A stretch of 40,991 nt of DNA from Flavobacteriales bacterium. Its GTDB lineage: Bacteria; Bacteroidota; Bacteroidia; Flavobacteriales_F; PHOS-HE28. Position numbers and translations under genes: made by a program. The stretch's first letter is position 1; every line of letters starts with the position of its first letter. The stretch spans positions 1 to 40,991 of the forward strand of contig JABWBQ010000027.1 in NCBI GenBank assembly GCA_013360395.1, written 5' to 3'. The notes beneath the pieces are model-generated. The model was not told the origin of the DNA. It searched no databases and worked only from the letters and a program-made list of their open reading frames with translations. Shown one piece after another: positions 34,987-40,631 of this stretch.

Positions 34987-36228
34987 TCAGGCCACCTTCA
35001 GCTGGCTCATGCGCGAGCGTTCGAACTTCTCGCGGGCGTAGGTCAGGGTGATGCGCAGTTCCGAAGGTCGCTCGCCGGAGCCCGGCATCTCGTACATCGC
35101 GTCGTTGAGGATGGCCTCGCAGATGCTGCGCAGCCCGCGGGCCCCCAGCTTGTACTCCACGGCCTTCTCCACGATGAAGTCCAGCACCTTCTTGTCCAGG
35201 CTGAGCTTCACCCGGTCCATCTCGAAGAGCTTGACGTATTGCTTGACCAGGGCGTTCTTGGGTTCGGTGAGGATACGGCGCAGGCTCTCCTTGTCCAGCG
35301 GGTCCAGGTAGGTGAGCACGGGGAAGCGGCCGATGAGCTCCGGGATGAGCCCGTAGCTGCGCAGGTCCAGGGGGCTCACGTACTGCAGCAGGTGCTCGTC
35401 GTTCACGCGGGCGCTCTCCCGGCTGGCGCTGTATCCCACGGCGCTGCTCTTCACCCGCCGCGCGATGATCTTGGCGATGCCGTCGAAGGCCCCGCCGCAG
35501 ATGAACAGGATGTTCCGCGTGTCCACCTGGATGAGCTTCTGCTCGGGGTGTTTGCGACCACCCTGCGGGGGTACGCTCACCGTGCTGCCCTCCAGCAGTT
35601 TCAGCAGGGCCTGCTGCACGCCCTCCCCGCTCACGTCGCGGGTGATGCTGGGCGTATCGCTCTTGCGGCTGATCTTGTCGATCTCGTCGATGAAGACGAT
35701 GCCGCGCTCGGCCTTGCTCACATCGTAGTCCGCCGCCTGCAGCAGGCGGCTCAGGATGCTCTCCACGTCCTCGCCCACGTAGCCGGCCTCGGTGAGCACC
35801 GTGGCGTCGGCGATGCAGAAGGGCACGTTCAGCATGCGGGCGATGGTGCGCGCCAGCAGGGTCTTGCCCGTACCCGTCTCGCCCACGAGGATGATGTTGC
35901 TCTTCTCGATCTCCACCTCGTCGTGGCCGGTGGCGGGCTTCTGCAGCAGGCGCTTGTAGTGGTTGTACACCGCCACGCTCAGCACCTTCTTGGCCTCGTC
36001 CTGGCCGATCACGTACTCGTCCAGCACCCGCTTGATGTCCGCGGGCCGCTGCAGGATGAGGCTGCCCTCGATCTCGCTGCGCGAGCGCTGGTTCAGTTCC
36101 TCGCTGATGATGTTCTGCGCCTGGGCGATGCAGCTGTCGCAGATGTGGCCGGTGATGCCGGCGATCAGCACGTTCGTATCCTGCTTGTCGCGCCCGCAGA
36201 AGGAGCACTTGATCTCTTTCTTCTCCAT
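34987..36228 (-). CDS. clpX: ATP-dependent Clp protease ATP-binding subunit ClpX
   Basis: AAA+ unfoldase that feeds substrates to ClpP; 413 residues. The N-terminal zinc domain has C8, C11, C30 and C33. Walker A is GETGTGKT at 116-123, and Walker B ends in D181-E182 (VFIDEID). Sensor and arginine-finger regions ([20 protein letters not shown]) are present. The ClpP-docking loop, IGF in most bacteria, reads VGY in [13 protein letters not shown]. The open frame extends to 36300, but the [14 protein letters not shown] start is universal in shape, and the promoter box lies between. It follows the two clpP genes and completes the protease. Confidence 0.97.
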
Positions 36229-36259
36229 GGGGATGGGGGGACGCCCGCAGGCAGCCGGG

Positions 36260-36267
36260 CCAAGATA
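36260..36267 (-). promoter_or_regulatory. -7 promoter element of clpX (TATCTTGG)
   Basis: TATCTTGG on the minus strand in the 96-nt clpP-clpX gap, 31 nt before the ATG. It would allow clpX expression independent of the clpP genes. Confidence 0.55.
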
Positions 36268-36324
36268 CGTCGGCCGCCGTGCGAAGTTGCACCCGGCCAA
36301 CGGATGTCCCTGCCTGTCAGGACC

Positions 36325-36993
36325 TTATTTGGTGTTCCGGACCAGGAGCTCGTCGATCATCCCGTAGGCCTTGGCCTCCTCGGCCACCATCCAATAATCG
36401 CGGTCGCCGTCCTTCTCCACCTTGTCGAAGGGCTGCCCGCTGTGGCCGCTGATGATCTCGTAGAGCTCCTTCTTGAGCTTCTTGATCTCGTTGACGGTGA
36501 TCTCCATGTCGCTGGCCTGGCCCTCGGCACCACCCATGGGCTGGTGGATCATCACCCGGGCGTGCTTGAGCGCGCTGCGCTTGCCCTTGGCCCCCGCGCA
36601 CAGCAGCACCGCGCCCATGCTGGCCGCCATGCCCGTGCAGATCGTGGCCACGTCGGGGTTGATGTACTGCATGGTGTCGTAGATGCCCAGGCCGGCGTAC
36701 ACCCCGCCCCCGGGGCTGTTGAGGTAGATCTGGATGTCCTTCTTGGCGTCCACGCTCTCCAGGAACAGCAGCTGCGCCTGGATGATGTTGGCCACCTGAT
36801 CGTTGATGGCGGTGCCCAGGAAGATGATGCGGTCCATCATCAGGCGGCTGAACACGTCCATCTGGGCCACGTTCAACTGGCGTTCCTCGATGATGTAGGG
36901 GGTCATCGAACTGGTGATGTAGCCGCCCAGCGTGGTGCTGCTGATGCCGCGGTGCTTCACGGCGTACTTCAGGAATTCGTCCTTGGGGAACAT
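36325..36993 (-). CDS. clpP: ATP-dependent Clp protease proteolytic subunit, copy 2 of tandem pair
   Basis: Serine protease subunit of the ClpXP barrel; 222 residues. The catalytic triad is complete: S125 in TGMAASMGAVL, H150 in RVMIHQPMGG, and D199 in GDRDYWM. The N-terminus FPKDEFLKYAVKHRGISS is longer than in E. coli and resembles the Bacteroidota form. It is about 80% identical by hand count to the adjacent copy, with some segments almost unchanged at the DNA level. It lies 24 nt after that copy and 96 nt before clpX. Position 97 is Gly in NSPGGGVYAG, where the other copy has Glu. Confidence 0.96.
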   Translation of the reverse strand: MFPKDEFLKYAVKHRGISSTTLGGYITSSMTPYIIEERQLNVAQMDVFSRLMMDRIIFLGTAINDQVANIIQAQLLFLESVDAKKDIQIYLNSPGGGVYAGLGIYDTMQYINPDVATICTGMAASMGAVLLCAGAKGKRSALKHARVMIHQPMGGAEGQASDMEITVNEIKKLKKELYEIISGHSGQPFDKVEKDGDRDYWMVAEEAKAYGMIDELLVRNTK

Positions 36994-37410
36994 GGTCTCA
37001 ATGGGTTGTTGGTCGTTCTATCGGGACCTTACGAGCAGCTCGTCGATGATGCCGTAGTCCTTCGCTTCGGCCGCGGTCATCCAATGATCGCGGTCGCTGT
37101 CCTTCTCGATGCGTTCGTACGGCTGCCCGGAGTGGGCGCTCAGGATGTCGTACAGTTCCTTGCGCACCTTGCGCACCTCGTTGATGGCGATCTCCATGTC
37201 GCTGGCCTGGCCCTGGGTGCCGCCCAGCGGCTGGTGGATCATCACCCGGGCGTGCTTGAGGGCACTGCGCTTGCCCTTGGCCCCGGCGCACAGCAGCACC
37301 GCCCCGAAGCTGGCGGCCATGCCCGTGCAGATGGTGGCCACGTCCGGGTTGATGTACTGCATGGTGTCGTAGATGCCCAGGCCGGCGTACACCTCGCCCC
37401 CTGGGCTGTT
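36541..37410. repeat. paralogous DNA shared by the two clpP genes
   Basis: The two clpP copies share long near-identical stretches on the same strand. The segment from 36541 to about 36710 aligns with that from 37231 to about 37400 with only scattered single-base changes, and the segments near 36834-36904 and 37524-37594 are almost identical. The offset is 690 bp. The copies are direct repeats, so recombination could delete one. Confidence 0.8.
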
Positions 37411-37683
37411 GAGGTAGATCTGGATGTCCTTCCTGGCGTCCACGCTCTCCAGGAACAGCAGTTGCGCCTGGATGATGTTGGCCACCTGGTCGTCCACGGC
37501 CGTGCCCAGGAAGATGATGCGGTCCATCATCAGGCGGCTGAACACGTCCATCTGGGCCACGTTCAACTGGCGCTCCTCGATGATGTAGGGGGTCACCGAG
37601 GCGGTGATGTAGCCGCCCAGCGCGGTGCTGCTGATGCCGCGATGTTTCACGGCGTAGCGGATGAACTCGTCGGGACGGGGCAT
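37018..37683 (-). CDS. clpP: ATP-dependent Clp protease proteolytic subunit, copy 1 of tandem pair
   Basis: Full-length ClpP (221 residues) with an intact triad: S125 in TGMAASFGAVL, H150 in RVMIHQPLGG, D199 in SDRDHWM. It differs from the next copy mainly at the N-terminal five residues, at positions 97 and 126, and in the C-terminal 60 residues (KVRKELYDILSAHSGQPYER against KLKKELYEIISGHSGQPFDK). Both copies look active, so mixed rings are possible. It starts 38 nt after the tig stop; a CATCTTCG box sits 11 nt before the ATG. Confidence 0.96.
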   Translation of the reverse strand: MPRPDEFIRYAVKHRGISSTALGGYITASVTPYIIEERQLNVAQMDVFSRLMMDRIIFLGTAVDDQVANIIQAQLLFLESVDARKDIQIYLNSPGGEVYAGLGIYDTMQYINPDVATICTGMAASFGAVLLCAGAKGKRSALKHARVMIHQPLGGTQGQASDMEIAINEVRKVRKELYDILSAHSGQPYERIEKDSDRDHWMTAAEAKDYGIIDELLVRSR

Positions 37684-39317: not shown

Positions 39318-40217
39318 ATGATGAAGCGCTTCGACCCCGCCGAACTGGCCGTGCCCGAACTGCACGCCCACCTGGTGGGGGCCGTGGGGCCGCGGCCGGT
39401 GGCCTTCGCCAGCACCATGGACGCCCAGGGCCGGCCCAACCTGAGCCCCTTCAGCTTCTTCAACGTCTTCGGCGCGGCCCCTCCCCTGCTGATCTTCAGC
39501 CCGGCGCGGCGCGGCCGTGACAACACGACCAAGGACACATACCACAACGTGAAGGCCCGGCCCGAGGTGGTGATCAACGTGGTGACGCACGCCATGGTGC
39601 ACCAGGCCTCGCTGGCCAGCACCGAGTATCCCGCCGGCGTGAACGAGTTCGAGAAGGCCGGCTTCACCATGCTGCCCTCCGAGAAGGTGGCCCCCTTCCG
39701 CGTGCAGGAAAGCCCTGTGCAGTTCGAATGCGCGGTGCGGCAGGTGATCGAGACCGGCACGGGCGGCGGCGCGGGCAACCTGGTGCTGTGCGAGGTGCTG
39801 CTGCTGCACATCGACGAGCGCGTGCTGGACGCACGCGGCCGCATCGACCAGCGCAAGATCGACCTGGTGGGCCGCATGGGGGGGCATTTCTACGTCCGGG
39901 CCCACGGCGACGCCCTCTTCGAACTGCCCCAGCCCGCGCGCGAGATCGGCGTGGGGGTGGACGCCCTGCCCCGGGAGGTGCGCGAAAGCACCGTGCTCAC
40001 CGGCAGCGACCTGGGCCGCCTGGGCGCCGTGACCGCCCTGCCCGACGAGACCCGCGTGAACGAACACAAGCTCACCGAGCTCGCCGAGCTCTTCATCCAA
40101 CACCAAGGCCGAGGCCCTGCGCTCCTGGCCGCCCTGCACGGCCATGCCCACCGCCTGCTGGCGGAAGGCCGCGTGGAGGAGGCCCTGCTCACCCTGCTGG
40201 CCTACAACGACCGATAA
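39318..40217 (+). CDS. flavin reductase-like FMN-binding protein
   Basis: A 299-residue protein whose first 200 residues are the split-barrel flavin reductase domain. Visible markers are GPRPVAFASTMDAQGRPNLSPFSFFN, then PPLLIFSPARRGRDNTTKDTYHN and VVTHAMVHQASLAS. Such proteins bind FMN and reduce flavins with NAD(P)H. Its own partner oxygenase is not next to it. The C-terminal 80 residues are a helical extension (TELAELFIQHQGRGPALLAAL and on) that I cannot assign. ATG codons at 39318 and 39321 are adjacent; the first is taken. Confidence 0.9.
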   Translation: MMKRFDPAELAVPELHAHLVGAVGPRPVAFASTMDAQGRPNLSPFSFFNVFGAAPPLLIFSPARRGRDNTTKDTYHNVKARPEVVINVVTHAMVHQASLASTEYPAGVNEFEKAGFTMLPSEKVAPFRVQESPVQFECAVRQVIETGTGGGAGNLVLCEVLLLHIDERVLDARGRIDQRKIDLVGRMGGHFYVRAHGDALFELPQPAREIGVGVDALPREVRESTVLTGSDLGRLGAVTALPDETRVNEHKLTELAELFIQHQGRGPALLAALHGHAHRLLAEGRVEEALLTLLAYNDR

Positions 40218-40232
40218 CCCTTACCCACCCTC

Positions 40233-40631
40233 ATGGCACAAGTCACCATCACCGGCACCATCAAGTTGGTCGGCAAGACCCAGGATGTGAGCAGCACCTT
40301 CCGCAAACGCGAGCTCGTGATCACCGAACCAAGCGGTCAGCGCCCCCAGCACATCCCCGTGGAGTTCACCCAGGACCGCACCAGCCTGCTGGACGCTTAC
40401 AAGACCGGCGACGAGGTGAGCGTGACCTGCTACGTGAACGGCCGGGAATGGACCGGGCGCGACGGGGTCACCAAATATTTCCTGAGCCTGAGCGGCAACC
40501 GGATCGAGCGGGTCGGCGCTGCGGCAGGCGCGGTACCATCGGGAGCACCGGCCACGGCCGCAGTTCCGGCCGTACCGCCCCCCGGGGTGGCGGACATGCC
40601 CCCGGCCGAGGACGACGACCTGCCGTTCTGA
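40233..40631 (+). CDS. DUF3127 family protein with SSB-like acidic tail
   Basis: A 132-residue small protein. Residues 1-90 are DUF3127, with ITGTIKLVGKTQDVSSTFRK, IPVEFTQDRTSLLDAYKTGDEV and NGREW, a pattern compatible with an OB-like barrel. A Pro/Ala-rich disordered linker follows. The last six residues are DDDLPF, the same form as the C-terminal tip by which SSB recruits partner proteins. It might bind nucleic acid or SSB partners, but no experiment I know of shows this. It starts 15 nt after the flavin reductase gene and may share its transcript. It ends 5 nt from the convergent glycosyltransferase stop. Confidence 0.87.
   Translation: MAQVTITGTIKLVGKTQDVSSTFRKRELVITEPSGQRPQHIPVEFTQDRTSLLDAYKTGDEVSVTCYVNGREWTGRDGVTKYFLSLSGNRIERVGAAAGAVPSGAPATAAVPAVPPPGVADMPPAEDDDLPF

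Follow-up and report, generated by a model that had tools for sequence, protein, structure and literature searches.

The window analysed here, a 40,991-nucleotide stretch of DNA from a Flavobacteriales bacterium (contig JABWBQ010000027.1 of assembly GCA_013360395.1), carries an open reading frame that begins with ATG at 40233, stops at 40629-40631 and encodes a small protein with the C-terminus PPAEDDDLPF (Table 1). The earlier note on this DNA had described a barrel-like N-terminal domain, a Pro/Ala-rich linker and a DDDLPF end, and this description is borne out by the translation and by an AlphaFold2 model. The Pfam profile of DUF3127 (PF11325) matches residues 6-92 at 1.8e-19, with 70.2 bits against a gathering score of 27, and the SSB profile (PF00436) stays below its cut-off, with E 0.055 and 14 bits over residues 38-92 against a gathering score of 26. 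PHROG 4932, named 'single strand DNA binding protein', matches at 2.8e-26 over residues 5-132, thus including the tail, and over positions 2-117 of a 117-position profile, while an NCBIfam search with the window protein gave nothing useful. Elsewhere in the window a ClpX-like gene is adjoined by a tandem pair of ClpP-like genes, which share 85% identity across 216 residues; these gene names are our assumption, based on sequence features.

Table 1. Features of the window discussed in the text, with their positions and the evidence for each.
Feature	Position	Strand	Evidence
DUF3127 protein, 132 aa	40233..40631, stop included	+	ORF and translation, Pfam PF11325, PHROG 4932
OB-barrel domain, residues 3-93	40239..40511	+	AlphaFold2, Foldseek, VIA-align, hhalign to Bacteroidota SSB
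Pro/Ala-rich linker, residues 94-126 (33 residues)	40512..40610	+	sequence; low model confidence; poor conservation
SSB-type tip DDDLPF, residues 127-132	40611..40628	+	sequence; conserved; strict pattern three times in genome
Flavin reductase-like gene, upstream neighbour	39318..40217	+	Pfam PF01613, 3.6e-18
ClpX-like gene	34987..36300		presumed from sequence features
ClpP-like gene, first of tandem pair	36325..36993	-	presumed from sequence features
ClpP-like gene, second of tandem pair	37018..37683	-	presumed from sequence features

The AlphaFold2 model, built with 133 homologues, predicts a five-stranded OB barrel (strands at residues 3-13, 24-32, 39-46, 61-74 and 80-93) with a helix (47-55) between strands 3 and 4; block means of pLDDT are 91-97 over residues 1-90, and the tail is less certain. 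When the PDB was searched with this model, all 50 matches listed were SSB or PriB, and VIA-align gave Z scores of 13.1-11.5, among them those of yeast Rim1 (Z 13.1, rmsd 2.5, 94 aligned) and the Salinibacter SSB 5odn (Z 12.9, rmsd 2.4, 94 aligned). The fold prediction that the earlier note had called for thus yielded a barrel of the SSB/PriB type, and the unrelated fold that it had named as a refutation did not appear. Among viral models the best named matches were DUF3127 proteins, with SSBs next, and the other main DUF3127 subtype (Shiella, L264) has a similar predicted strand order. At the sequence level, hhalign against 22 Bacteroidota SSBs gave 94.4% and E 8.9e-8 in the second half of the OB domain, with the tail not included, and a search of its own genome with the full-length protein returned the SSB gene as second match at 9.8e-5, this time with the tail included. 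A single-sequence search of the PDB found Deinococcus SSB 1se8 at 0.0018, and a profile search of PDB sequences returned chance NADH-dehydrogenase matches, with SSB only at E 5.5. As this last search was weak, our claim of homology rests on hhalign, the fold and the PHROGs match.

PriB (Z 12.4, rmsd 2.3, 87 aligned) ties with the SSB matches by the rule of the alignment tool, which, together with the small size of the protein, favours a PriB-like primosome part, that is, an SSB-derived OB protein acting in replication restart or helicase loading with PriA or DnaB and using the tip as a tether. We regard this as unlikely, since an excerpt of PMC8509808 presents PriB as devoid of the SSB C-terminal region, whereas the cellular DUF3127 proteins of our sample all keep the tip, and since the phage forms described below sit with recombination exonucleases.

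Of 395 phylum genomes, 222 have a match to a domain-only Pfam profile of DUF3127, and the full-length window protein has matches in 41 of the 45 genomes of the genus. Conservation of the tail was read from 180 complete cellular ORFs, in which the window's own copy is counted twice: the 30 best-scoring loci of the phylum, 40 further loci chosen among the matches listed so as to cover a range of genera, 31 loci of the genus and 79 of 80 loci from named genomes, one ORF having run off its contig. It should be noted that the ranking of the named-genome loci used matches in which the tail can be included, and that weak phylum matches are under-sampled, the matches listed reaching only to about 3.5e-28. 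All 180 ORFs have PF as their last two residues and an acidic residue just ahead of these. After removal of redundancy, PF is found at the end of 136/136 homologues (109-162 aa), mostly after Asp-Asp-Leu (L at position -3 in 123, D at -4 in 121 and at -5 in 114), so that the earlier note was right about related Bacteroidota proteins ending in DDLPF. Among these 136 the last five columns hold 3.3-4.3 bits each and the linker columns mostly about 1 bit, the linker being 17-44 residues long and poorly conserved in sequence. The tail is therefore among the best-conserved parts of the protein, the opposite of the poorly conserved tail that would have spoken against the earlier note, and a linker followed by a conserved acidic tip ending in PF, the SSB-type build, is present in every member of the non-redundant set.

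Within the barrel, R71 is invariant and E72 near-invariant, and positions 23, 73, 82 and 83 are aromatic in 136/136 cellular homologues; from a reading of the motif, we take residue 73 to be the counterpart of the ssDNA-stacking Trp88 of E. coli SSB. These residues argue against the idea that the protein is a competitor or regulator devoid of DNA binding, in which the barrel would be a scaffold and the tip would block or titrate SSB partners. Such a role would be compatible with a tip identical in kind to that of SSB, and an OB fold by itself is no proof of nucleic-acid binding; given the phage evidence below as well, we consider it improbable. As for the linker, an excerpt of PMC10164576 states that E. 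coli SSB requires at least 11-20 residues, and the cellular DUF3127 linkers fall within or exceed this minimum. The window protein is no member of PF00436 by Pfam score, yet it has, as judged from sequence and model, the build of an SSB in each structural feature tested.

Because the end of the linker is rich in Asp/Glu in many members, the tip might be thought to have arisen by chance or from composition in a protein unrelated to SSB. The strict pattern, [D/E]-x-[LIVMF]-P-F with TAA or TGA next, has 3 sites in the whole 3.68-Mb genome and its backwards counterpart 0, and among 805 other ORFs of the cellular loci L229-L308 none ends in the tip. These counts, along with the PF end in all non-redundant homologues across the phylum, leave a chance origin with next to no probability, and we rule it out. 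A relaxed pattern, [D/E]-x-x-P-F followed by TRR, gave 13 sites compared with 22 for its backwards control, so that only the strict tip stands out; 7 of the 13 precede TGG, which is no stop, 3 are the known genes and 3 (C63, C74 and C81) lie at the ends of ORFs that, going by their sequence, are probably shadow frames.

The three owners of the strict tip in this genome are SSB, the DUF3127 protein and the replicative helicase DnaB, which ends in DADDEVPF. The genome carries one DUF3127 gene and three PF00436 genes; the housekeeping SSB (contig C118) ends in PADDLPF, and two short paralogues end in EALVEAAA and LTAAAKAA and are thus without the tip. A similar division is seen among 32 distinct SSB-family proteins from 24 genomes, taken from loci for part of 49 matches, of which 22 have the PF end; the 10 without it include 7 short paralogues of 110-116 aa. 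DnaB ends in PF in 16/16 genomes and in 23/29 more, amounting to 39/45 Bacteroidota genomes (this genome, G000:C40, loci L380 and L398; others, L378-L393 and L500-L528), although its PF is not always preceded by an acidic residue and is present also in genomes without DUF3127. More broadly, DD-[LIVMF]-PF-stop was found in 128 of 148 phylum genomes (the backwards control matched about 16); a tipped ORF was present in 64 of the 69 loci read, and the 52 left after repeats were removed by eye comprised 22 SSB, 18 DUF3127, 4 DnaB and 8 others. Bacteroidota proteins with a DDLPF or DDVPF end also include two related caspase-like proteins from two genomes (L435/L467 and L466), as well as a protein kinase (PADLOC mad6/PD-T4-6-like), a TIR-effector-like protein, a DUF4062 protein, a UvrD-like helicase and a family-B DNA polymerase (L464, L494, L496, L497 and L491). 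Several of these other tipped proteins resemble anti-phage defence proteins.

The earlier note had proposed that the family may be a second SSB-like hub. Its conserved tail and OB fold stand, and a hub role may be inferred from them; however, as the tip is present on DnaB too and not just on two OB proteins, the proposal is incomplete. This unexpected tip on DnaB, which would also suit a PriB-like primosome part, turns what looked like a matter of a second hub into one of a tag in common use; the helicase, SSB and DUF3127 may all use one set of docks, jointly or in competition. We speculate, at less than an even chance, that in Bacteroidota the SSB tip serves as an address tag common to the replisome, whereby SSB, DUF3127 and DnaB, each with a tip of the (acidic)-x-PF kind, would compete for one set of tip-readers and thereby set when repair and replication factors are exchanged, whereby phages would copy the scheme with tipped DUF3127 and primase-helicases, and whereby some suspected anti-phage proteins (caspase-like, kinase, DUF4062 and TIR-like) would bear the tip so as to take part in the scheme or to sense it.

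In cells DUF3127 mostly has no constant gene context. No general operon with repair genes was found around it at 100 cellular loci, where the largest other neighbour cluster reached 13/100. A flavin reductase related to that of the window lies near DUF3127 at 10/20 loci (L401-L420), and the upstream flavin reductase-like gene is probably not part of the function. At 4/4 loci of family f12 (L005, L011, L016 and L022) the sliding-clamp gene dnaN lies beside DUF3127, which is again in keeping with a primosome part of the PriB kind, and in Bacteroides finegoldii (L531, 2724-4375) dnaN beside DUF3127 is followed by a 3'-5' exonuclease, coaBC and recN, the exonuclease after dnaN being found also at 2/4 f12 loci. 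The operon search was also run from four B. finegoldii genes, dnaN, the exonuclease, coaBC and murB, and these returned the dnaN link at 4/4 f12 loci and no general operon.

In phages the family is well represented. With the DUF3127 query P0001, 87 INPHARED records were matched, nearly all named for Flavobacteriaceae hosts, and the other subtype extends to Bacteroides and Parabacteroides phages; two scans of viral contigs confirmed 582/600 and 111/163 candidate stretches, and the best 80 from each make up the 160 viral loci considered here. In Nonlabens phage P12024L the DUF3127 gene comes after those for an Erf annealase and a YqaJ-type exonuclease, and in Cellulophaga phi18:3 it lies within the RecT region; neighbour clusters assigned by their representatives to the exonuclease/RecE family and to NinG occur at 59/160 and 27/160 viral loci, respectively. 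No canonical SSB (PF00436) was found above cut-off in 50 DUF3127-bearing phage records, some of which may be fragments, and the sole weak PF00436 match coincides by its coordinates with the DUF3127 gene; this, too, speaks against a regulator that does not bind DNA. That DUF3127 and canonical SSB exclude each other in Flavobacterium phages was only partly borne out, and from incomplete lists: 77 records match P0001 and 80 match the SSB query, and 62 records matching the SSB query come from F. columnare, a host absent from those named for the P0001 records, where ten further hosts go unnamed.

The tip is less constant in viruses. Of the viral ORFs, 159 are complete; the PF end is present in 118 of these, 27 lack the tip and are at most 96 aa long, and the other 14 end differently, in several cases in a near-tip such as DDLPFN or DDLPY. 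One viral subgroup (L202, L204, L205, L207-L209, L211-L218, L220-L223 and L225-L227) ends right after the OB domain at 86-87 aa, with neither linker nor tip. The existence of tail-less forms indicates that phages can make do with the barrel by itself, and in such forms a function confined to blocking SSB partners would be lacking; the tip is an addition, one kept by every cellular copy in our sample. Primase/DnaB-like proteins near viral DUF3127 are tipped as well, 12/21 in one neighbour cluster (L072, L077, L082, L083, L093, L094, L112, L134, L202, L218, L226 and L227). Other tipped ORFs lie near 8/28 tail-less and 12/118 tailed viral DUF3127 genes, and we set this link aside, as the numbers are small and confounded by relatedness.

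Taken together, we propose that DUF3127 is a divergent mini-SSB, a likely ssDNA-binding OB domain with an SSB-type docking tip that is auxiliary to the housekeeping SSB, and on sequence and model we consider this probable. The phage context, with exonucleases, a RecT region and no canonical SSB, makes ssDNA binding the likeliest activity; this activity, the oligomeric state, the partners and the pathway are what we infer. The OB domain (about 93 residues) would bind single-stranded DNA and the flexible linker would present DDDLPF, which should fit the SSB-tip pockets of repair and replication enzymes, with a hydrophobic hole for the last Phe and a basic lip and ridge. The protein might in this way coat particular ssDNA beside the housekeeping SSB, perhaps in recombination, repair or gap filling, and either bring tip-reading enzymes to that ssDNA or compete with SSB for them. 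Bacteroidota phages, in turn, appear to use DUF3127 as their own SSB in exonuclease/annealase modules, and where the tip is retained it would let the phage protein call on host tip-readers. Several points count against the mini-SSB: the score below the Pfam SSB cut-off and the weak PDB profile search; the ability of OB folds to bind RNA or protein too; the lack of a general repair operon in cells and of a match in 173/395 phylum genomes; and the 27/159 short, tip-less viral forms, according to which the barrel can act alone.

In part this is already known, as PHROGs lists the phage form as an SSB and several RefSeq records of phage DUF3127 are named single strand DNA binding protein, a label behind which we know of no assay. 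Among the open-access papers listed, as judged from titles and abstract openings, we found no work on a cellular DUF3127 protein or on an SSB tip of Bacteroidota DnaB, and an excerpt of PMC8004638 mentions a hit to the DUF3127 domain for the SSB of a Pantoea phage. If our proposal is true, a widespread family of 'unknown function' would be a second ssDNA-binding hub of a major phylum that includes gut, soil and marine bacteria, its partner list would be directly testable as whatever reads the SSB tip, and it would be explained how many Bacteroidota phages do without a canonical SSB. The DnaB tip further suggests that work on SSB partners in Bacteroidota has covered one of at least three tag owners.

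Among known systems, DUF3127 comes closest in build to bacterial SSB, such as 5odn or the SSB of its own genome, with which it shares the OB barrel, the disordered Pro/Ala-rich linker and the acidic PF tip; unlike these, it is shorter, scores below the Pfam SSB cut-off and is encoded by a second gene beside the housekeeping SSB. PHROG 4932, whose members are phage proteins, matches the whole window protein, tail and all. PriB is likewise a small SSB-derived OB protein with a structural score equal to that of SSB for the DUF3127 model, but the linker and tip of 136/136 cellular DUF3127 proteins set these apart from a PriB that, in the excerpt of PMC8509808, is without the SSB C-terminal region. 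The T7 primase-helicase gp4 has an acidic tail ending in Phe. The same is indicated for the T7 SSB gp2.5 by the title of a reference in PMC9917605, and the two T7 tails, which belong to other protein families and involve no DUF3127, parallel the tipped SSB, DUF3127 and helicases described here.
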